Shown in pieces: positions 21,048-32,756 of a DNA stretch of 32,756 bases. The position numbers and the translations under genes are program-made. Position 1 is the first letter of the stretch. Every line of letters begins with the position of its first letter. The notes beneath the pieces are model-generated. The model had not been told where the DNA came from. It did no database searches and saw nothing but the letters and a program-made list of their open reading frames with translations. Origin of the DNA: Candidatus Roseilinea mizusawaensis (lineage in GTDB: Bacteria; Chloroflexota; Anaerolineae; J036; Brachytrichaceae); assembly GCA_016841965.1 (NCBI GenBank), contig JAEANN010000051.1:1-32756 (forward strand). Reading direction: 5' to 3'.

Positions 21048-22622
21048 TCAGGTTAGCGCATATTCGATCGAGTCGGCCAGCGCCTGCCAGGATGCGTCGA
21101 CGATATTGGTCGAGCAGCCGACCGTAGTCCACGTGCGGCCGCCGCAGCGCGTGTCGATGGTGACGCGCGTGGTGGCGGCCGTGGCGTTGTTGCTGTCGAG
21201 GATGCGCACCTTATAGTCGGCCAGCCGCACTTCGGCCAGTTGCGGGTAATGCGGCAGCAGCGCCTTGCGCAGCGCGCGGTCGAGCGCGTTTACCGGCCCG
21301 TCGCCCTCGGCGGCGGTGTGGGCAATCTCTTCGCCGCCATTGCGCACGCGCACCTTGACGTTGGCTTCGGCCAGCAGGCCGCGCCCCTGGCGGTTTTCGA
21401 CCACGACCAGAAAATCAATCAACTCAAATGGCGGCGTGTAGCCTTTCTGCGCGCGCCGCAGCATTAGTTCGACCGATGCTTCGGCGCCCTCGAAGTAGAA
21501 GCCCCGGCTCTCAAGCTCTTTGATCTGTTGCAGCACTTTGCGCGCCTCTTCTTTGCCGACATCCAGGCCGAATTCGCGCGCCTTGTACTGGATGTTGCCG
21601 CGCCCGCTCAGCTCGCTGACCAGCACGCGCTTGCTGTTGCCGACTCGGGCCGGGTCGATGTGCTGGTACGACTCCTCGACCTTGAGGATGGCTGCCACGT
21701 GGATGCCGCCCTTGTGGGCGAATGCGGCGTGGCCGGTGTAGGGCGCGCGGATGTTGGGCGCCTGGTTTGCCATCTCGGCCACGTAGTGCGACAACTCAGT
21801 CAATCTGCGCAATTGCGCGTCGCTGACGCACTCATCGCCCATTTTTAACTTCAGGTTAGCGATGGTGGGGATCAGGTCGCAATTGCCCACGCGCTCGCCA
21901 TAGCCGTTGATGGTGCCCTGGACTTGTGTGCAGCCGGCCCGCACCGCTTCGAGCGCGTTGGCCACAGCTAGGCCGGCGTCGTTGTGTGTGTGAATCCCGA
22001 ACCGAACGATGGACTGCGGGCGCTCTTCGCGCAGTCTATCAACGGTGAGTCGGACGATTTCAGCCACTTCCCACGGCATTGTGCCGCCATTGGTGTCGCA
22101 CAGCACCAGCCAGTCTGCGCCGGCATCCACAGCGGCGCGCAGTGTGGCCAGCGCATATTCCCGATCCAGCTTAAAGCCGTCGAAATAGTGCTCGGCGTCG
22201 TGCATCACCTCTTTGCCGTGCGCCTTGAAGTAAGCCACGCTGTCGCGGATCATGTCGAGGTTTTCTTCGAGCGTTGTTTCGAGCACATGTTTGACGTGCA
22301 GCGTGCTGGTCTTGGCAACCATAGTCACGACCGGCGTCTGGGCATCGTGCAGCATTTTGATCTGGGCGTCGCTTTCGCATGCGACGCCGGCTTTGCGTGT
22401 GCTGCCAAACGCCGCCAGACGAGCGCCTTTGAAGCCCAGGGCTTTGGCGCGGGCGAAGAATTCGGCGTCTTTGGGGTTGCTGCCCGGCCAACCCCCCTCA
22501 ATGTAATGCACGCCGAATTCATCCAGCCGGCGGGCAATGCGCAACTTGTCTTCGACCGACAGGTTGATCCCTTCGCCCTGGGCGCCGTCGCGCAGCGTAG
22601 TGTCGTATAACGCGGTAGTCAT
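21048..22622 (-). CDS. cimA: (R)-citramalate synthase
   Basis: Condenses acetyl-CoA and pyruvate to citramalate, opening the pyruvate route to 2-oxobutyrate and isoleucine. The start is the ATG at 22622, with AGGAGG upstream; the ORF frame reaches 22685. The 524 residues begin with LYDTTLRDGAQGEGINLSVEDKLRIA and contain the TIM-barrel metal motif GIHTHNDAGLAVAN and the C-terminal LeuA-type allosteric domain (about 400-524), as expected for CimA with isoleucine feedback. The GAQGEG motif distinguishes it from LeuA (GEQSPG) encoded nearby. Its leader contains an Ile-coding short ORF and a terminator, suggesting attenuation. Confidence 0.92.
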   Translation of the reverse strand: MTTALYDTTLRDGAQGEGINLSVEDKLRIARRLDEFGVHYIEGGWPGSNPKDAEFFARAKALGFKGARLAAFGSTRKAGVACESDAQIKMLHDAQTPVVTMVAKTSTLHVKHVLETTLEENLDMIRDSVAYFKAHGKEVMHDAEHYFDGFKLDREYALATLRAAVDAGADWLVLCDTNGGTMPWEVAEIVRLTVDRLREERPQSIVRFGIHTHNDAGLAVANALEAVRAGCTQVQGTINGYGERVGNCDLIPTIANLKLKMGDECVSDAQLRRLTELSHYVAEMANQAPNIRAPYTGHAAFAHKGGIHVAAILKVEESYQHIDPARVGNSKRVLVSELSGRGNIQYKAREFGLDVGKEEARKVLQQIKELESRGFYFEGAEASVELMLRRAQKGYTPPFELIDFLVVVENRQGRGLLAEANVKVRVRNGGEEIAHTAAEGDGPVNALDRALRKALLPHYPQLAEVRLADYKVRILDSNNATAATTRVTIDTRCGGRTWTTVGCSTNIVDASWQALADSIEYALT

Positions 22623-22642: not shown

Positions 22643-22680
22643 AAAAACAGCGAGAGCCTTCCGGGTTCGGGAAGGCTCTC
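22643..22680 (-). terminator. Terminator in the cimA leader (likely attenuator)
   Basis: On the minus strand GAGAGCCTTCC, a 7-nt loop and GGAAGGCTCTC (arms at 22670-22680 and 22652-22662), then a T5 run at 22643-22647. It stands just before the AGGAGG of cimA and after the promoter, so transcription must read through it conditionally to reach cimA. Confidence 0.7.
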
Positions 22681-22711
22681 CACAATCAAACGATAGCGAT
22701 ATCTGGACGTG

Positions 22712-22798
22712 TCAGCCAGTCACCCTCGACCCATGTGCCCAGACTCGCGCCCCGGCGCATACCGGGCCGCGAGTCGAACTAATCGCGATCGTAATCAT
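22712..22798 (-). CDS. Candidate leader peptide of cimA
   Basis: 28-codon ORF in the cimA leader, with Ile at codons 2, 4 and 6 (start MITIAISSTRG). It begins 34 nt after the predicted transcription start and ends 31 nt before the terminator. A strong hairpin (ACTCGCG 22743-22749 and CGCGAGT 22768-22774, plus internal CCCGG/CCGGG) lies within codons 9-19. CimA makes an isoleucine precursor, so Ile codons fit an attenuation mechanism. Only three Ile codons are present and no good Shine-Dalgarno precedes the ATG, so chance cannot be excluded. Confidence 0.45.
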   Translation of the reverse strand: MITIAISSTRGPVCAGARVWAHGSRVTG

Positions 22799-22838
22799 GT
22801 GGCCAAAAGCCGGGCTGACTGGCGTCATGCTGAGCGGT

Positions 22839-22866
22839 AGTTTATCCAGGCCGGGCGAACTGTCAA
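22839..22866 (-). promoter_or_regulatory. cimA promoter
   Basis: TTGACA (22861-22866), 16 bp, TAAACT (22839-22844), reading on the minus strand. The -35 is perfect and the -10 matches 4 of 6. It overlaps the stop of the upstream gene (22863), so cimA and clp have their own start site inside the larger cluster. Confidence 0.6.
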
Positions 22867-23470: not shown

Positions 23471-24031
23471 TTATGAGTTGTGGCCGTTGAGCGGCAACAG
23501 CGATTCGGGGCCGCACGGCTGGTTCATCAGCAACTCGATCACTTGTTCGTAGGACGACCAATCGTTGTAAAGGCTGTCTTCGCACAGCCGGTGCAATCCG
23601 TGTTTGCCGTGCATGTCATCTGGGCTGGGCAGGGCAGCGCCGATGGGGCTGTCCTGTGCTGAAGTGAATCGCTCGGCAATCAGCGGCTGCTCGCCAAAGT
23701 GCATCTGCAGGCGTGTCCGCCACATCCGTTGCAGGTACATCGCCGCAAGGTACTGTTTGCGCAACTCGCGCCGGCCTGCTTCGGGCAACGTCGCCTGAAC
23801 TGTCGCTGCGCAGTCGGCCAGTTCTGGGTGGGCCAGCAACAACGCTGCCAGGGCGAACCGCAGCCGCGCGTTGCGTGATTGCGCCAGGCCGGCGATCAAT
23901 GCTTCGTCGCTCAGGGGGCGTTCGTCACCATGTGGCGTCGGCGCCAGGTAGCACACGCCGCGCGCGTGCAGGCCGGCCACCAGATCGTCGCGCTCTGGAG
24001 TTTCTGGCGCGACGTTTGTTGGCTTGTTCAT
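23471..24031 (-). CDS. Hypothetical protein, partner of the nucleotidyltransferase
   Basis: 186 residues, mostly helical (LRFALAALLLAHPELADCAATVQATL, then RRELRKQYLAAMYLQRMWRTRLQMHFG), with no domain I recognise. AGGGG precedes the ATG. It is the first gene of a pair with the DUF6036-like nucleotidyltransferase. A role as substrate-recognition partner or antitoxin is possible but inferred only from position. Confidence 0.65.
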   Translation of the reverse strand: MNKPTNVAPETPERDDLVAGLHARGVCYLAPTPHGDERPLSDEALIAGLAQSRNARLRFALAALLLAHPELADCAATVQATLPEAGRRELRKQYLAAMYLQRMWRTRLQMHFGEQPLIAERFTSAQDSPIGAALPSPDDMHGKHGLHRLCEDSLYNDWSSYEQVIELLMNQPCGPESLLPLNGHNS

Positions 24032-24144: not shown

Positions 24145-24735
24145 CTATCCCTCGTGTATCCGCTCAAACGCCTCAATCTTGTCGCGCAGGTTCAACACAT
24201 AGCCGATCTCGTCCACGCCGTTGAGCAGGCACGTCTTCGAGAAATGGTCGATCGAAAATGCTACGCGCCGGCCATCGGGCAGCGTCACGGTTTGTGCTGC
24301 CAGGTCTATGGCGAGTGTCGTGTTGGGATCTTCTTGCACCAGGCTGAACAGTTGCTGATGGGTGTCTTTGTCGACAACGATGGGCAGCAAGCCGTTCTTG
24401 AGCGAATTGTTGCGAAAGATGTCGGCAAATGAGGTGCTGATGACCGCGCGGAAACCATAGCCCACCAGCGCCCAAGGGGCGTGCTCGCGCGAGGAGCCGC
24501 ACCCGAAGTTGTCGCCGGCCAGTAGAATCTGTCGGCCTTGCATCTCCGGCCGGTTCAGGACGAAGTCGGCGCGCGGTGAGCCGTCGGCGTCGTAACGCCA
24601 GTCGGCGAACAGATTGTCTCCCAACCCCTTTTTGTCTGTCACTTTCAGGAAGCGGGCCGGGATGATCTGGTCGGTGTCCACATTCTCGTTGGGCAGCGGG
24701 ACAATTTTGCTGGTTAGGGTGGTGAATTGATTCAT
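24145..24735 (-). CDS. leuD: 3-isopropylmalate dehydratase small subunit
   Basis: Small swivelling subunit of isopropylmalate isomerase, which converts 2- to 3-isopropylmalate in leucine synthesis and also citramalate-derived intermediates on the isoleucine route. The 196 residues have the typical N-terminus ([21 protein letters not shown]) and the conserved [17 protein letters not shown]. It pairs with LeuC upstream on the same strand across a 146-bp gap. The ATG has no clear ribosome-binding site. Confidence 0.95.
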
Positions 24736-24770
24736 GGTGGTTCAGATGTGCAAAGCGCAGGCCGAATGTC

Positions 24771-24814
24771 GCTTATGCGCCGCTTATGCGCCGCTTATGC
24801 GCCGCTTATGCGCC
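24771..24814. repeat. Four copies of an 11-bp tandem repeat between leuC and leuD
   Basis: GCTTATGCGCC, four perfect contiguous copies. They occupy the leuC-leuD gap, 36 nt upstream of the leuD start. Confidence 0.95.
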
Positions 24815-24881
24815 TTCTCGTGGCGCGCGCTTGCCGGGCAGAAGTCGCGCGTGGGGTTGATCGACAGCTTATGATGGGCGA

Positions 24882-26291
24882 TCATTGTATCAACGTACGG
24901 GGGTCGGCGACTGCGCCGGCTACTGCGCTGGCTGCGGCGGTGAGCGGGCTGGCCAGGAAGGTGCGACCGCCTTTGCCCTGCCGGCCCTCGAAATTGCGAT
25001 TGCTGGTGCTGACGGCGTATTGTCCCGGCGCGAGCTGGTCGCCGTTCATGGCGATGCACATGCTGCAGCCGGCCTCGCGCCACTCCGCGCCGGCCTCCTT
25101 GAAGATGCGGTCTAGCCCTTCGGCCTCGGCCTGTCGTTTCACCTGCGCCGAACCGGGCACCACCATCGCGCGCACGCGCGGGTTGACCTTGCGTCCTTTC
25201 AGCACACTGGCTGCCAGTCGCAAGTCGGTAATGCGCGAGTTCGTGCAACTGCCGATGAACACCACGTCAATCGGCTGCCCCAGCAGCGGCTGGTTTGGCT
25301 TCAGGTCCATGTAGGCCAGGGCCTTGCTCAGCGCGTTGCGTGCGCTCAGGTCGGGCGTCTTTGCCGGGTCAGGCACGCGCCCGGTAATGCCGATGCCCAT
25401 GCCGGGGTTGGTGCCAAAGGTGACCATTGGCTCCAGCGCGCCGGCGTCGAGTGTAAGCGTGGCATCGTAGCGTGCGCCGGGGTCGCTGGGCAACGTGCGC
25501 CAGCGCGCCAGGGCTTTGTCCCAGGCCGGCCCTTTGGGGGCATATTCGCGGCCTGCCATGTACTCAAACGTGGTGTCGTCGGGGGCGATCAGGCCGGCGC
25601 GTGCGCCGCCCTCGATGCTCATGTTGCAAATGGTCATGCGCTCTTCCATGCTCAGCCGGCGGATGGCCGCGCCGGTGTACTCGAAGACATGGCCGGTGCC
25701 GGCGCCCACACCATAGCGGGCAATCAGCGCCAGAATGATGTCTTTGGCGGTCACACCTTTCTGCAAAACGCCGTCGATCTGCACTTGCATGGTCTTCGGT
25801 TTGCGCTGCAACAGGCATTGCGTTGCTAGCACCATTTCGACCTCGCTGGTGCCGATGCCAAAGGCCAGCGCGCCAAATGCGCCGTGTGTGCTGGTGTGGC
25901 TGTCGCCGCACACAATCGTCATGCCGGGCTGGGTCAGGCCCAGCTCTGGCCCAATCACATGCACGATGCCCATCTTGTCCGGTGCGCTATGCAGGCCGTA
26001 AAGTGTCACCCCGAATTCAGCGCAGTTTTTCTCCAACTGGGCGATTTGCTTCGCTGCCAGCTCGTCCAGGATCGGCAAGTCGCGCGGGGTTGTTGGGATG
26101 CCGTGATCCATCGTGGCGAAGGTGCGGTCGGGGCGCCGGACGCGGATGCCGCGCGTGCGCAGCCCGTCGAACGCCTGCGGAGATGTCACCTCGTGCACCA
26201 GATGCAGGTCGATGTAGAGAACAGCCGGGCTGTCCGGCTCTTGCGCCACCACGTGCGCGTTCCAGATCTTTTCAAATAAAGTTTGGGACAT
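24882..26291 (-). CDS. leuC: 3-isopropylmalate dehydratase large subunit
   Basis: Large, [4Fe-4S]-carrying subunit of isopropylmalate isomerase. The start is the ATG at 26291, giving 469 residues, the usual length; the open frame runs further upstream without homology. Conserved segments are [14 protein letters not shown], the cluster ligands FIGSCTNSR and GCSMCIAMN, and the aconitase-type [18 protein letters not shown] precedes the start. It partners with LeuD downstream and follows a small membrane protein gene by 38 nt. Confidence 0.96.
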
Positions 26292-26329
26292 CAGTTCTGA
26301 AATCCTCTTGAGTGATGTCTGTGTAATGT

Positions 26330-26815
26330 CTATGATTGCCCTTGCCCAAGCACCATGCCCAGGGCGATGCGGAGGGCCAGGATGGCCGCCCATGTGCCCA
26401 CGAAAATGGCGACGCAGAGCGCTGCACGCATCGCGGCCGGCCGGGGAGAGCGCATGATGACCAGGTTGAAGAAGAACGCGATAAACGAGATGATGAACGA
26501 ATCCAGGCCGAGGAAGAACACGCCCGGCAGCAAGGGCAGCCCGGCGACTATCCATTCCCACGATTTCATCGGGGGCGCAAGTTGCACCCAGTCCTCGTTG
26601 TACCAGACCAGCGGCACCAGGTCCAGAAAGCTGGAGCGCACTTCCAGCACGCCGCCTTTGATCTGGTAAAACGTTCCGGCGGCGCCGCGCGCACCCCGAT
26701 GTGAGGGACTGACCGGCTTGCCGTCGGCGTACACCTTGACCTTGCCGCTGAACAGCGCGCGGTCGATTACCACATTCACCTTGAACGGCGCGGGGGTCTG
26801 GAACGAGTACTGCAT
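26330..26815 (-). CDS. Membrane protein of unknown function inside the leu cluster
   Basis: 161 residues. The N-terminal half is soluble and beta-rich ([23 protein letters not shown] and [15 protein letters not shown]), followed by about three hydrophobic segments ([56 protein letters not shown]). I do not recognise a family. It is co-directional between leuA and leuC and likely co-transcribed. No known role in amino acid synthesis is suggested by the sequence. Confidence 0.65.
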
Positions 26816-26893
26816 GATGTCAATCTTAATCGAATCGCCGGCTGCTCGTGGGCACGTTCGGCGCCGGGCAGAGACAACGGGGGTCTCTAGGAG

Positions 26894-28450
26894 CTACGAG
26901 CGGGCGCGCACGCGGCGCAAGCCTTTGTTCACGGCAGCCAAGAAGGCGCGACCGCTGGCAACCAACGTGTCGGTGTCGGCGCTGCGCCCGCTGAACACGT
27001 GCTTCTTGCCTTCGCCGTTGGCCATTTCGACCCGGATGGTGACGTCGGCGACGGCGTCGATGCCTTCGGTCACGGCGTGGACGTGGAACTCGGTCAGCTT
27101 GGCATTGGCGCCGGTGATGCGGTTGATGCAGTTGCAGATGGCGTCGACAGGGCCGTTGCCCAGCGCTGCGTCGGCGTGCACTTCGCCTTCCTCATCGAGA
27201 AGACGCACGCTGGCTACGGGCGAGCTGCCGGTGCCGCTGGTCACATTGATGCTGTCGAGTTTATACACCTCGTTCAGCGTCTCGAACTGGTCGGCCACGA
27301 TCGCTTCCAAGTCGGCGTCGGTGACGACCTTTTTCTTGTCGCAGAGTGCTTTGAAGCGTTCGAACGCTTTGTCCAGCTCTTCGCGCGACAGCTCGTAGCC
27401 CATCGTCTTCAGCCGGTCAGAGAAGGCATGTCGGCCGCTGTGCTTGCCCAGCACCAGATTGGAGGCGTTCCAGCCCACAGTCTCTGGCCGCATGATTTCG
27501 TAGGTGAGCGGGTTTTTCAGCATCCCGTCTTGGTGAATGCCGGCTTCGTGCGCGAAGGCGTTTGCGCCGACGATGGCTTTGTTCGGTTGAACGGAGATGG
27601 AGGTCAGTGCGCTGACCATCTTGCTGGTGCGCACCAGTTGTGTGGTGTCGATGTTCGTGCGCAAGCCATAGAAAGCCTTGCGCGTGTGCAAGGCCATCAC
27701 CACTTCTTCCAGCGAGGTGTTGCCGGCTCGTTCGCCGATGCCGTTGATGGTCACCTCGGCCTGCCGCACACCGGCCTCGATGCCGGCCAGCGTGTTGGCC
27801 ACGGCCAGCCCCAGGTCGTCGTGGCAGTGCGCCGACAGGATGACTTGATCTGCCCCCGGCACGTTCTTCAGGATACCCTCGATCATGCGACGGTATTCGG
27901 TCGGCGTGCAGTACCCCACCGTATCGGGGATGTTCAGTGTAGTGGCGCCGGCCTGAATCGCCACGGCCAGCACCTGCCACAGGAATTCCGGATCGCTGCG
28001 CCCGGCATCCTCTGGCGAGAACTCAACGTCTTGACACAGGCTGCGCGCATAAGCCACTGCCTCGCCCACGCGCTCGATGCATTCGTTGCGCGAGATGCGC
28101 AGCTTGTGTTCCAGGTGGATGTCGCTGGTGGCCAGAAAAGTGTGAATGCGCGGTTTTTTGGCCCACTGCACTGCGCCCCAAGCGCGGTCGATGTCGGTTT
28201 TGTTGGCGCGCGCCAGTCCGGCGATGGTTGGCGCATTGTCGAGTGTGCCGACTTCCTGCGCGATGCGCGTGACTGCCTCGAAGTCGCCGGGTGAGGCGAT
28301 GGGGAAGCCGGCCTCGATGATGTCCACGCCCAGCCGGTGAAGCTGCCGGGCGATTTCCAGTTTCTCTGCCAGATTCAGCGTGGCGCCGGGCGATTGCTCC
28401 CCGTCGCGCAACGTCGTGTCGAATATTAAAACGGTGTTCTTGTCGCTCAT
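26894..28450 (-). CDS. leuA: 2-isopropylmalate synthase
   Basis: Condenses acetyl-CoA with 2-oxoisovalerate, the first committed step of leucine synthesis. The 518 residues start [19 protein letters not shown], with the [20 protein letters not shown] metal/catalytic region and the NERAGN-like [18 protein letters not shown]. The C-terminal allosteric domain (about 395-518) is present, so leucine feedback inhibition is expected. AGAGG lies 6 nt before the ATG. It follows ilvC by 82 nt, with a hairpin in the gap. Confidence 0.96.
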
Positions 28451-28487
28451 AATTGCCTCTGCGGATTGTATTCCCGTGCCTGGAACT

Positions 28488-28516
28488 AAAAGTCCGCACC
28501 TGCGGGGGTGCGGACT
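28488..28516 (-). terminator. Hairpin between ilvC and leuA
   Basis: On the minus strand AGTCCGCACC, 6-nt loop and GGTGCGGACT (arms 28507-28516 and 28491-28500), followed by a short T run. A partial terminator or processing hairpin that could lower leuA expression relative to ilvBNC. Confidence 0.6.
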
Positions 28517-28532
28517 GTTGCATTTGCTTGGC

Positions 28533-29555
28533 TTACGCGCCGCCTTGCCCCGGGTTGACTTCCTTCGGATTAAGCCATGGCATCATGCGTCGAAGCTGCG
28601 CGCCCACTTTTTCGATCTGGTGCTGGCTGTCGCGCTGGCGCATGGCCGTGAAGTTGGGCCGGCCTTTCGCGTTCTCGTCGATCCATTCCTCGGCAAACGC
28701 GCCGCTCTGGATTTCGGACAAGATGCGCTTCATCTCTTGCTTGGTCTGCTCGGTCACGATGCGGGGGCCGCTGACATAGTCGCCGTACTCGGCGGTATCG
28801 CTGATCGAGTAGCGCATGTAGTTCAGCCCACCCTGATAGAACAGGTCGACGATTAGCTTCAACTCGTGCATGCATTCGAAGTAAGCCACTTCGGGCTGAT
28901 AGCCGGCTTCGACCAGCGTCTCGAACGCGGCCTTCACCAGGTGGGAAACGCCGCCGCACAACACCACCTGCTCGCCGAACAGGTCGGTCTCGGTCTCCTC
29001 GGCGAAGGTGGTTTCGATAACGCCGGCGCGTGTGCCGCCGATGCCTTTGGCGTAGGCCAGCGCGTTGGCTTTGGCGTCGCCGCTGGCGTCCTGATGCACC
29101 GCGACCAGGCACGGCGTGCCCTGGCCCGATTGGTACGTTTCGCGCACGCGATGCCCCGGCGCCTTGGGGGCAACCATGCTGACATCTACGCCGGCGGGCG
29201 GCACGATCTGCCCAAAGCGAATGTTGAAGCCGTGCGCGAACATCAGCGTTTTGCCCGGCGTCATGTGCGGCGCGATATGCTCACGATACACGGCTGCCGC
29301 TGGCACATCGGGCACCAGCATCATGATGAAGTCGCCGGCTTTGGCTGCATCGGCGATGTTCATGACGGTGAGGCCGGCGCTTTTAGCCTTCTCCACGCTC
29401 TTGCTGCTTGGCGGGAGGCCCACCACCACGTTGACGCCGCTATCTTTCAGATTTTGTGCGTGCGCGTGGCCCTGGCTGCCGAACCCGATGATGGCCACAG
29501 TCTTGCCGGCCAACAAATCCAGATTTGCGTCCTGGTCATAGTAAACAGTTGCCAT
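28533..29555 (-). CDS. ilvC: Ketol-acid reductoisomerase (class I)
   Basis: Isomerises and reduces acetolactate or acetohydroxybutyrate with NAD(P)H in valine, leucine and isoleucine synthesis. The 340 residues match the short class I form. The Rossmann motif [20 protein letters not shown] is followed by the cofactor loop GLPPSSKS, whose serines indicate NADPH preference. The knotted C-terminal domain has [14 protein letters not shown] (metal ligands) and [17 protein letters not shown] lies 13 nt before the ATG, a rather long spacing. Confidence 0.97.
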
Positions 29556-29654
29556 GTGCGTTTGGAACTCCTGTGTTCAGTCTGCGGTCAGTATGGCGGC
29601 GATTCTAGCGCCACAATTCAATCGCGCGGGCCAGACGGACCCGTGCGGTGTTGG

Positions 29655-30266
29655 TCAGGTGTGACGGCCTTTGCCATTGGCGCTAACCGTCGCGCCATCG
29701 AAGGAGGCAATCGGAACCTCGACTGCTTCGTGTGCCTGGGCCATGCGGGTTGTGCCGCGCCCCATGGCGATACGCCCTGTGCGCACTACTTCCATGATCC
29801 CGTAATCGCCCAGCACGTGCAGTATGGCGTCGATCTTGGTCTCGTCGCCGGTCACCTCCACGATCAGCGAGTCCTTTGACACATCCACCACGTCACTCTT
29901 GTATATATCGGCGATCTGTTTGATCTCGCTGCGCTGCTGGGCATTGCTTGTGCGCACTTTGATCAGCGCCATCTCGCGGATCACAGCCGGCACGTTGGTC
30001 AGGTCTTGCACGTCGATGACGTTGATCAGCTTGTACAGATTGCTTTCCACCAGCGCCGCGCTGGTCTTGCTGGCGTCCACGACGATGGTCATGCGCGAAA
30101 TGGCCGGGTCGTCTGTTGTGCCGACGGCCAGGCTGTCAATGTTGTAGTTGCGCCGGCGAAACAGGCTGGCGACGCGATTCAAGACGCCGGGCTTGTTCTC
30201 CACCAGTGCCACCAATGTGTGCTTCTGCTTGTTTTGGCGGGCTGCTGCGGCATGATCGATTAGCAT
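29655..30266 (-). CDS. ilvN: Acetolactate synthase small (regulatory) subunit
   Basis: Regulatory partner of IlvB, giving valine feedback sensitivity. The 203 residues have the N-terminal ACT domain (HTLVALVENKPGVLNRVASLFRRRNYNIDSLAVG) and the second ACT-like half (SLIVEVTGDETKIDAILHVLGDYGIMEVVRTGRIAMGRG). An AGGAG lies close to the ATG (4-nt spacing). Upstream of it is a tandem of two 11-bp units, TTGACTTGTTC and TTGACTTGTTA (30275-30296). The 99-nt ilvC-ilvN gap holds nothing clear. Confidence 0.95.
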   Translation of the reverse strand: MLIDHAAAARQNKQKHTLVALVENKPGVLNRVASLFRRRNYNIDSLAVGTTDDPAISRMTIVVDASKTSAALVESNLYKLINVIDVQDLTNVPAVIREMALIKVRTSNAQQRSEIKQIADIYKSDVVDVSKDSLIVEVTGDETKIDAILHVLGDYGIMEVVRTGRIAMGRGTTRMAQAHEAVEVPIASFDGATVSANGKGRHT

Positions 30267-30561: not shown

Positions 30562-32295
30562 TTATTTGACTGTCTCGAATCCGGTTCCTAACGCGGCGGG
30601 CTGTCGGCGCACCATCTCGTTCAACGCCTTGCCCGGCATCACCATTGGGAACACGTTCGTCTCGTTCTCAACCACGAACTCGCACAGCACAGGCCCGTTA
30701 TGTGCGCGGGCGCGCGCGATGATGTCGCGCGTCTCCTGCATGGTTGTCGCCCGCAAGCCCAACATGCCATAGGCATCGGCTAGTTTTTGAAAATCGGGCG
30801 TCCACATCTGGGTGGCCGAGTAACGCTTGTCGTGCATCAACTCTTGCCACTGTCGCACCATGCCCAGGTAGTTATTGTTGATGATGGCGATCTTGATGTT
30901 CAGGCCTTCTTGCATGATGGTGGCCAGTTCGGGGATGCTCATTTGAAAGCCGCCGTCGCCGGCGATAGCCCAGATTTCCTCGTCGGGGCGGGCAAAGCGG
31001 GCGCCAATGGCGGCCGGCGTTGCGAAGCCCATCGTGCCCAGACCGCCGCTGGTGAGCAACTGGTTGCGCCGCGTGTGCTGAAAGTATTGCGTCTCCCACA
31101 TCTGGTGCTGCCCGACGTCGGTGGCAATCGTGCAATTGCCGCCGGTCGCCTCCCAAATTGCCCGGATCACCTGCGGCGCAAGCAACAGATTCTCCGGCAG
31201 CTCCTGGTTGATCACATCGTGGGCTTGGGTATCCATGCGCCATTCGTTGATTTGCGTCATCCAGGCGTCGTGTGTGCGCTTGGCCACCAGCGGGGTCAGG
31301 TCGCGCAGCACATCCTTCACACTGCCCACAATCCCTACGTCGGCCGGCACGTTCTTGTTGATTTCGGCAGCGTCGATATCCACGTGAATGACGCGCGCGT
31401 TCTTGGCGTATTGCGACAGGTTGCCGGTAACGCGGTCGTCGAAGCGCATGCCCAGGGCGATCAACAAGTCGGCATTGGCGATGGCCTGGTTGACATAGGC
31501 TTCGCCGTGCATACCCATCATGCGTAGGTTTAGCGGATGATCTTCGCTCAGCACGCCAATGCCCAGCAGGGTGGTGGCGACCGGAATGCCGGTCTTGTTG
31601 ACGAACTCGCACAGCTCGTCATGCGCTTTGCCGTGCTTGATACCCTGGCCGGCCAGAATCACCGGACGCCTGGCGTTGTCGATCAGATTGGCAGCGGCGC
31701 GCAGCAGAGCCGGTATGTCCTGCCGGCGCATCGGCTTGATGGCCCGGTAGCCGCGCATACGCACGCTGGTCACGGGTGAATATTCGGTCGATTTCTGTTG
31801 CGCGTCTTTGCAGATGTCGATCAGCACTGGCCCAGGCCGGCCGCTGCGGGCAATGTAGAACGCTTCGGCGATCACCTGAGCAATCTCATCGACGTTCATT
31901 ACCAGATAGTTGTGCTTGGTGACCGGAAGTGTGACCCCGGTGACGTCTGTCTCCTGAAAAGCGTCACTGCCCACCAGGTGCGAGGCAACCTGGCCGGTGA
32001 TGGCGACGATGGGCGAGGAATCCATCATGGCATTGGCCAGGCCGGTGACGAGGTTCGTTGCGCCCGGCCCGCTGGTCGCCATGCACACGCCCACCTTGCC
32101 GCTGGCGCGGGCGTAGCCATCGGCTGCCAGGGCCGCATTCTCTTCGTGCCGCACAAGCACGTGATGAACGCGATCCTGGTAGTCGTATAGCGCATCGTAG
32201 GTGGGCAGAATCGCCCCGCCGGGGTAACCGAAAACGACTTCGACCCCCTGCTGGATCAGTGATTCCCAGATAATCTGTGCTCCGCTCAGTTTCAT
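30562..32295 (-). CDS. ilvB: Acetolactate synthase large (catalytic) subunit
   Basis: ThDP-dependent synthesis of acetolactate and acetohydroxybutyrate, first common step of branched-chain amino acid synthesis. The ATG at 32295 is preferred because AGGAG lies 7 nt before it; the ATG at 32301 is only 1 nt from the AGGAG. The 577 residues have the typical FGYPGGAILPTYDAL, the catalytic Glu in VRHEENAALAADGYAR, the FAD-region loops and the C-terminal ThDP motif IAGDGGFQMSIPELATIMQEGLNIKIAIINNN. It is the first structural gene after the attenuator leader. Confidence 0.97.
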   Translation of the reverse strand: MKLSGAQIIWESLIQQGVEVVFGYPGGAILPTYDALYDYQDRVHHVLVRHEENAALAADGYARASGKVGVCMATSGPGATNLVTGLANAMMDSSPIVAITGQVASHLVGSDAFQETDVTGVTLPVTKHNYLVMNVDEIAQVIAEAFYIARSGRPGPVLIDICKDAQQKSTEYSPVTSVRMRGYRAIKPMRRQDIPALLRAAANLIDNARRPVILAGQGIKHGKAHDELCEFVNKTGIPVATTLLGIGVLSEDHPLNLRMMGMHGEAYVNQAIANADLLIALGMRFDDRVTGNLSQYAKNARVIHVDIDAAEINKNVPADVGIVGSVKDVLRDLTPLVAKRTHDAWMTQINEWRMDTQAHDVINQELPENLLLAPQVIRAIWEATGGNCTIATDVGQHQMWETQYFQHTRRNQLLTSGGLGTMGFATPAAIGARFARPDEEIWAIAGDGGFQMSIPELATIMQEGLNIKIAIINNNYLGMVRQWQELMHDKRYSATQMWTPDFQKLADAYGMLGLRATTMQETRDIIARARAHNGPVLCEFVVENETNVFPMVMPGKALNEMVRRQPAALGTGFETVK

Positions 32296-32308
32296 GGTCA
32301 TGCTCCTT

Positions 32309-32390: not shown

Positions 32391-32420
32391 AAAAAAGCCT
32401 TCCGTCTAGGAAGGCTTTTT
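32391..32420 (-). terminator. Intrinsic terminator in the ilvB leader (attenuator)
   Basis: On the minus strand AAAAAGCCTTCC (32409-32420), loop TAGAC, GGAAGGCTTTTT (32392-32403) with a T-tract. It lies after the ilvB promoter and leader peptide but about 90 nt before ilvB, so it must be conditional. Its A-rich 5' arm also makes it a fair terminator for the plus strand. Confidence 0.85.
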
Positions 32421-32500
32421 ATGTGCAAGTCGTGCGCGTCTATTACTACGAGACCGCCGTCCTAAACGGTTTAAGCTCCCGTCCACTAAGGACCAGGAGC
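32402..32500 (-). promoter_or_regulatory. Pause hairpin and antiterminator of the ilvB attenuator
   Basis: A hairpin in the coding part of the leader (GCTCC-TG-GTCC, loop TTAGT, GGAC-G-GGAGC; 32475-32500) covers codons 14-23. Next, CCGTTTAGGA (32460-32469) can pair over 10 bp, with one G-U, with TCCTAGACGG (32402-32411), which is the terminator loop plus part of both arms. The two structures exclude each other. A ribosome at the leader stop would cover 32460-32469 and let the terminator form. Confidence 0.65.
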
Positions 32501-32541
32501 AAGCTAACGACGACGATCGCAATAATCGACAACGAACGCAT
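32446..32541 (-). CDS. ilvB leader peptide (branched-chain amino acid attenuator)
   Basis: 31-codon ORF between promoter and terminator. Residues 6-18 read IIAIVVVSLLLVL: eleven of thirteen are Ile, Val or Leu. It ends with three consecutive stops (TAG TAA TAG, 32440-32448), a precise release point. The product is expected to have no function of its own; translation speed senses charged Ile, Val and Leu tRNAs. The ORF begins 37 nt after the predicted transcription start; its Shine-Dalgarno is weak. A signal-anchor-like peptide is the alternative reading, but position and flanking structures argue for a leader. Confidence 0.8.
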   Translation of the reverse strand: MRSLSIIAIVVVSLLLVLSGRELKPFRTAVS

Positions 32542-32584
32542 GTCAATAACCGAACCGCGCTGTGCGTTGATTAAGATGGCCGTG

Positions 32585-32613
32585 TTTATACCCGACGGTC
32601 AAAGGATTGTCAA
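32585..32613 (-). promoter_or_regulatory. Strong sigma-70-type promoter of the ilv-leu operon
   Basis: TTGACA (32608-32613), exactly 17 bp, TATAAA (32585-32590) on the minus strand. It is the best promoter match in the window; transcription should start near 32578, giving a leader of about 285 nt before ilvB. Confidence 0.85.
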
Positions 32614-32686
32614 GCGCTGAAGCGGCCTTGGGGTGTAGCGCAGAAATGTGGGCGACTTTTTCTGCAGCGAGGGCAAAATAAGGGGC

Positions 32687-32756
32687 ATGAAGACATCAAC
32701 CGTAACCAGCTACGCACAGCGGCGCGAGCAGTTCCTGGCCCTGGCCGCCCAAGCCT
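32687..32756 (+). CDS. Start of a truncated ORF at the window edge
   Basis: An ATG after an AAGGGG opens a frame of 23 codons to the window end (MKTSTVTSYAQRREQFLALAAQA). It is divergent from the ilvB promoter. The charged, helical start does not allow a family call. Confidence 0.45.
   Translation, partial: MKTSTVTSYAQRREQFLALAAQA

Follow-up and report, generated by a model that had tools for sequence, protein, structure and literature searches.

In Escherichia coli, the ilvGMEDA operon (leader ilvL) and the leuABCD operon (leader leuL) are controlled by the interplay of a stalled ribosome, an antiterminator, and a terminator, with a multivalent leader for isoleucine, valine, and leucine. 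The Chloroflexota ilvB leader described here would follow the same switch logic, but it differs from these leaders in phylum, sequence, and operon, and it has no clear Shine-Dalgarno sequence. The ilvBNC operon of Corynebacterium (the ilvB-II motif; IlvL, MTIIRLVVVTARRLP) likewise carries an Ile/Val/Leu-rich leader before ilvB with three competing hairpins, and whose leader is translated without a ribosome binding site, as is assumed for the Chloroflexota leader (PMC10272879, PMC11857589). The Chloroflexota leader is nevertheless twice as long and has no Rfam match, its coding part contains the antiterminator strand, an extra hairpin covers its last control codons, and its operon continues to leuACD. 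The ilvB-OMG and Leptospira ilvB motifs are further RNA motifs found before ilvB that have been reinterpreted as leader-peptide attenuators (PMC10272879); in the window and, one tRNA apart, in 20 related loci no Rfam family scores above its cut-off, although Rfam may not hold both of these motifs.

At the time of a 2010 survey, leader peptides were known only from Proteobacteria and Actinobacteria, to which that survey added Firmicutes (PMC2965389), and Leptospira and others followed later (PMC10272879). We found no earlier report of a leader-peptide attenuator in Chloroflexota in the literature searched, which lay mostly outside subscription journals, and the attenuator has apparently been undescribed in this phylum until now. 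Most documented cases of the mechanism come from Proteobacteria, Actinobacteria, and some Firmicutes; it would be widespread in Chloroflexota as well.

In this study, we examine the region upstream of ilvB in a window of 32,756 nucleotides, the whole stretch of DNA analysed. By its anatomy and evolution, the ilvB leader is a genuine and conserved attenuator of ordinary predicted mechanism, and it is one of a set whose predicted amino acid specificities differ.

Architecture of the ilvB leader

The window comes from a Chloroflexota MAG of the Anaerolineae, among the relatives of Candidatus Roseilinea, and a sequence search returned Anaerolineae MAGs, Candidatus Roseilinea included, as the sources of the nearest ilvB sequences. 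Its minus strand, which carries all of the leader features given below, encodes ilvB (acetolactate synthase large subunit; 30562..32301), preceded by a Shine-Dalgarno sequence AAGGAG that was read by eye (32303-32308) and followed 3′ by ilvN, ilvC, leuA, leuC, and leuD (24145..30266). All six genes were identified by family models, in agreement with the operon ilvBNC-leuACD named in an earlier interpretation of this DNA made without database searches (the sequence-only reading).

The leader promoter comprises a TTGACA -35 box (32608..32613) and a TATAAA -10 box (32585..32590) with a 17-nt spacer, and matches the consensus at 11 of 12 positions; an automated scan reported no promoter here because it required the second hexamer to end in T. 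TTGACA and TATAAA are retained in the ilvB leaders of most relatives. Positions 32631-32756, the final 126 bases of the window, form the terminal part of a multi-copy ISKra4-like element, and 17 bp separate its end from the downstream -35 box. Copies of this element occupy 12 places in the genome, mostly 16-17 bp ahead of -35 boxes, with a tRNA gene and the trpE T-box among the sites; 8 of the 12 are accompanied by a promoter matching at least 9 of 12 consensus positions whose -35 box lies at 15-17 bp from the element end, compared with a random-site rate of 0.00055. The transposase pieces give a weak ISKra4 match, far under the curated cut-off. ISKra4-group elements have a documented preference for sites 15-17 bp ahead of sigma-A promoters (PMC3942029), so the fixed distance between repeat and promoter is a property already described rather than a new one. 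The insertion next to the -35 box is thus evidence for the leader promoter that does not rely on the promoter sequence itself.

Downstream of the promoter, a leader ORF of 31 codons plus a stop (32446..32541) encodes MRSLSIIAIVVVSLLLVLSGRELKPFRTAVS and ends in three consecutive stop codons, TAG TAA TAG. In the Roseilinea genome this ORF has no Shine-Dalgarno sequence, and its predicted 5′ UTR is about 37 nt. Codons 6-18 (IIAIVVVSLLLVL; 32488..32526), at which 11 of the 13 residues are Ile, Val, or Leu, are the putative control codons and double as the 5′ strand of a 1:2 pairing. A pause-type hairpin, P1 (32475..32500; -16.4 kcal/mol), spans the last of these codons and shows covariation. The antiterminator pairs a 5′ strand, CCGTTTAGGA (32460..32469), which lies within the ORF at codons 25-28, with a 3′ strand, TCCTAGACGG (32402..32411), over 10 bp with one G-U (-14.3 kcal/mol). 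The latter strand is common to the intrinsic terminator (32392..32420; a 12-bp stem, then a T-run), in which it extends from within the left arm through the loop into the beginning of the right arm. As a whole, the 175-nt leader folds 4.8 standard deviations better than its dinucleotide shuffles (z -4.8). The sequence-only reading had described a near-perfect promoter, a 31-codon ORF with this Ile/Val/Leu content, a triple stop, a hairpin over the sensing codons, a 10-bp antiterminator pairing, and an intrinsic terminator ahead of ilvB, and every one of these elements was recovered, the ORF by translation.

Conservation and covariation among relatives

A genome search yielded 27 other genomes of the same family, and a homologous leader was present in every one of the 25 family genomes with an identified ilvB, the Roseilinea genome included. 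The leader peptides of these 25 genomes follow the pattern LVVV..I..LLVLS..E..FR.A or a near variant of it. A detector that looked for an ORF rich in Ile, Val, and Leu together with a terminator and an antiterminator pairing gave scores of 45 or more, its threshold, for 57 of the 144 regions upstream of ilvB, which is not a tally of independent cases because the loci include same-species duplicates, and for no dinucleotide shuffle (of 2,880) or reverse complement (of 144). Region 2 gave stronger pairing with the native terminator (mean 25.9) than with a swapped one (17.9). The shuffles, reverse complements, and swaps together rule out a chance pairing as the origin of the antiterminator.

In an alignment of 33 sequences, the paired fraction was 91.7% for P1 plus antiterminator, where both sides had changed in 7 pairs, and 98.8% for the terminator, where they had in 6. 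None of 500 shuffles matched the observed covariation score for P1, antiterminator, and terminator, and RNAalifold recovered P1 and the terminator unaided. The sequence-only reading had looked to aligned relatives for support of its proposal that the operon is regulated through translation of a leader peptide; in the relatives the ORF is retained together with its Ile/Val/Leu run, the antiterminator pairing and the terminator persist through compensatory changes, and this conservation supports the proposal.

A covariance model of the leader matched 64 of the 98 relatives at E<=1e-5 and 73 of them at 0.01; across the phylum it matched 66 of 301 genomes at 0.01. These E-values are approximate, and some of the searched genomes had contributed to the model. 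Many of the matches precede ilvD, the head of an operon that holds ilvB (L256-L258). The notion that the attenuator is absent in most other Anaerolineae was consequently dropped, since many negatives of the ilvB scan have it before ilvD, some 1.5-2 kb upstream. A weak match before a DAHP synthase gene (L261) fails the detector and is probably false.

The leader ATG in a series of relatives (L092-L113) is often only about 13-20 nt past the -10 box and lacks a Shine-Dalgarno sequence, and leaderless translation of these leaders, by analogy with C. glutamicum ilvL, is therefore likely. Several further features were observed among the loci. Tandem pairs of model matches, possibly double attenuators, occur in two genomes (G030:C512:2020-2433 and G161:C4:107522-108538). 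Distant families (L114-L118) have a second terminator-like hairpin between the attenuator and ilvB. Close ilvB relatives at about 60% identity occur without the attenuator in genomes of the Sorangium and Opitutaceae type (L022, L024, L053, L085), and gene transfer is a possible explanation for them.

Proposed switch and competing explanations

The leader very probably acts as a transcription attenuator driven by ribosome position. It combines an ORF of control codons with an intrinsic terminator and with an antiterminator that covaries and is mutually exclusive with the terminator, and the spacing is suitable as judged from distances and folding. In the proposed mechanism, RNA polymerase would start at about 32578, and the 31-codon leader, assumed to be translated, would be entered by a ribosome. 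When charged Ile-, Val-, or Leu-tRNA is scarce, the ribosome would stall at codons 6-18 and leave the strand 32469-32460 exposed, which would then pair with 32411-32402, preclude the terminator, and allow transcription of ilvBNC-leuACD. With ample amino acids the ribosome would reach the stop codons and cover 32469-32460, so that the terminator would form and transcription would end. Stalling, amino acid response, and termination in the cell are what we infer from this arrangement, and the codons suggest a response to all three branched-chain amino acids, as the sequence-only reading had proposed.

The geometry is consistent with such a switch. In the median, 16 nt separate the last control codon from the antiterminator strand, and 17 nt lie between that strand and the stop codon; thus, a ribosome at the control codons would free the strand and one at the stop would cover it. 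In folds that assumed a ribosome to cover 12 nt beyond its A site, the RNA outside the ribosome formed the antiterminator (-23.5 kcal/mol) when the ribosome stood at codons 14-18, and lacked it when the ribosome stood at codon 23 or at the stop. In the absence of a ribosome, a long 1:2 hairpin, the candidate protector that would promote termination when the leader is not translated, formed in the full transcript, and none in a partial transcript.

Codon choice in the leaders is also distinctive. The leucine codons CTT and CTC make up 63% in leaders versus 22% in ilvB of the same genome (leader higher in 35 of 35 loci), and the valine codons GTT and GTC make up 89% versus 39% (33 of 35 loci). 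RNA stems could account for part of this bias; CTT in the P1 loop, however, is unpaired there. A preference for CTY and GTY would fit attenuators that use codons whose tRNAs discharge first, and one study reportedly deals with codon sensitivity.

This codon bias also bears on whether the ORF might instead encode a small functional membrane peptide, with the terminator serving ordinary constitutive or protein-controlled attenuation. The conserved stretch is indeed strongly hydrophobic and resembles a membrane helix, but the C-terminal residues track the RNA pairing (FR occurs with the strand GTTTAGG, VGR with GTTGGGAG), the ORF stops before region 2 in some relatives (L112, L113), and the cimA leaders are Ile-rich instead, all of which makes a membrane peptide highly improbable. 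We attach just as little credence to a riboswitch or T-box that would govern the terminator and leave the ORF incidental. Although T-boxes occur in the Roseilinea genome and a ppGpp riboswitch controls ilv genes in some other bacteria (PMC10272879), the six T-box matches of this genome sit before synthetase genes and trpE, the window contains no Rfam family above cut-off, only one tRNA was found in 20 related loci, and both the ORF and its control codons are conserved in frame. The T-box covariance model gave no match upstream of the ilvB operon, and for the Rfam families Thr_leader and Phe_leader the best score on the right strand was 23.8 bits against a cut-off of 55, carried by the terminator.

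Translation-dependent control of a kind other than the classical switch, such as Rho-dependent termination or coupling, has a precedent at ilvB of Streptomyces: in Streptomyces coelicolor, a similar ilvB leader was unresponsive to mutation of its control codons (PMC1262725). This caution extends to the Chloroflexota ilvB leader. Such control would nonetheless have no need of the strong intrinsic terminator and covarying antiterminator seen here, and we consider it very unlikely, which leaves attenuation by ribosome position as the preferred reading.

A wider set of predicted amino acid attenuators

The same strand of the window contains a predicted second attenuator, biased toward isoleucine, at 22652-22866. 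It precedes cimA (21048..22622; TIGR00977), which encodes citramalate synthase, the first step of isoleucine synthesis from pyruvate, and consists of a promoter, TTGACA-16-TAAACT (22839..22866), a leader ORF encoding MTPVSPAFGHMITIAISSTRGPVCAGARVWAHGSRVTG and closed by a stop codon, with Ile at codons 12, 14, and 16 (22712..22828), a hairpin GACTCGCG...CGCGAGTC (22742..22775), and a terminator (22652..22680). An ORF with at least 3 Ile per 12 codons was found before a terminator in 26 of 26 family genomes, as compared to 10 of 2,600 shuffles, and a leader with at least 5 Ile in 15 of the 26, as compared to no shuffles. The cimA leaders show covariation in the hairpin, antiterminator, and terminator, and the Roseilinea copy is among the weakest of the family. 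Between leuD and cimA lies a 186-aa ORF (23471-24031, minus strand) that has no NCBIfam or Pfam match.

Elsewhere, matches to the covariance model precede leuS (L249, with a Leu-rich leader), ilvE (L263), and leuA (L244); the names ilvD, leuS, ilvE, and leuA rest on translated gene starts rather than on family models. Mixed Ile/Val/Leu codons characterise the ilvD and ilvE leaders, and this gene-by-gene specificity, with Ile before cimA and Leu before leuS, speaks for attenuation by ribosome position. The six T-box matches of the Roseilinea genome (L223-L228), three of them strong yet just below the curated cut-off, lie before a class I (Ile/Val/Leu/Met) synthetase gene, trpE, serS, a Trp/Tyr synthetase gene, thrS, and leuS. 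With T-boxes before synthetase genes and trpE and attenuators in the same genome, the two would therefore share the work, and one lineage can split amino acid control between two sensing systems. We lean slightly toward the broader view that Chloroflexota possess an old attenuator network (Ile/Val/Leu at ilvB, ilvD, and ilvE; Ile at cimA; Leu at leuS and leuA) beside T-boxes, in which leaders start without a Shine-Dalgarno sequence and control codons are chosen for NNY-reading isoacceptors. The leaders offer many natural variants for testing the evolution of leader codons and amino acid specificity, and they indicate unannotated small genes that the covariance model can be used to annotate.

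Palindromes were noted at some of these promoters. One, CCTGTCTGACAGG, was set aside as irrelevant to the Roseilinea genome, being missing from its own ilvB promoter. The form CCTGTCTGAYAGG, which the Roseilinea genome lacks at ilvB, lies just 5′ of the ilvB -35 box in many relatives (L092, L096-L098, L111, and others) and upstream of cimA in one relative (G007:C1:204295), and is possibly the operator of a shared regulator.
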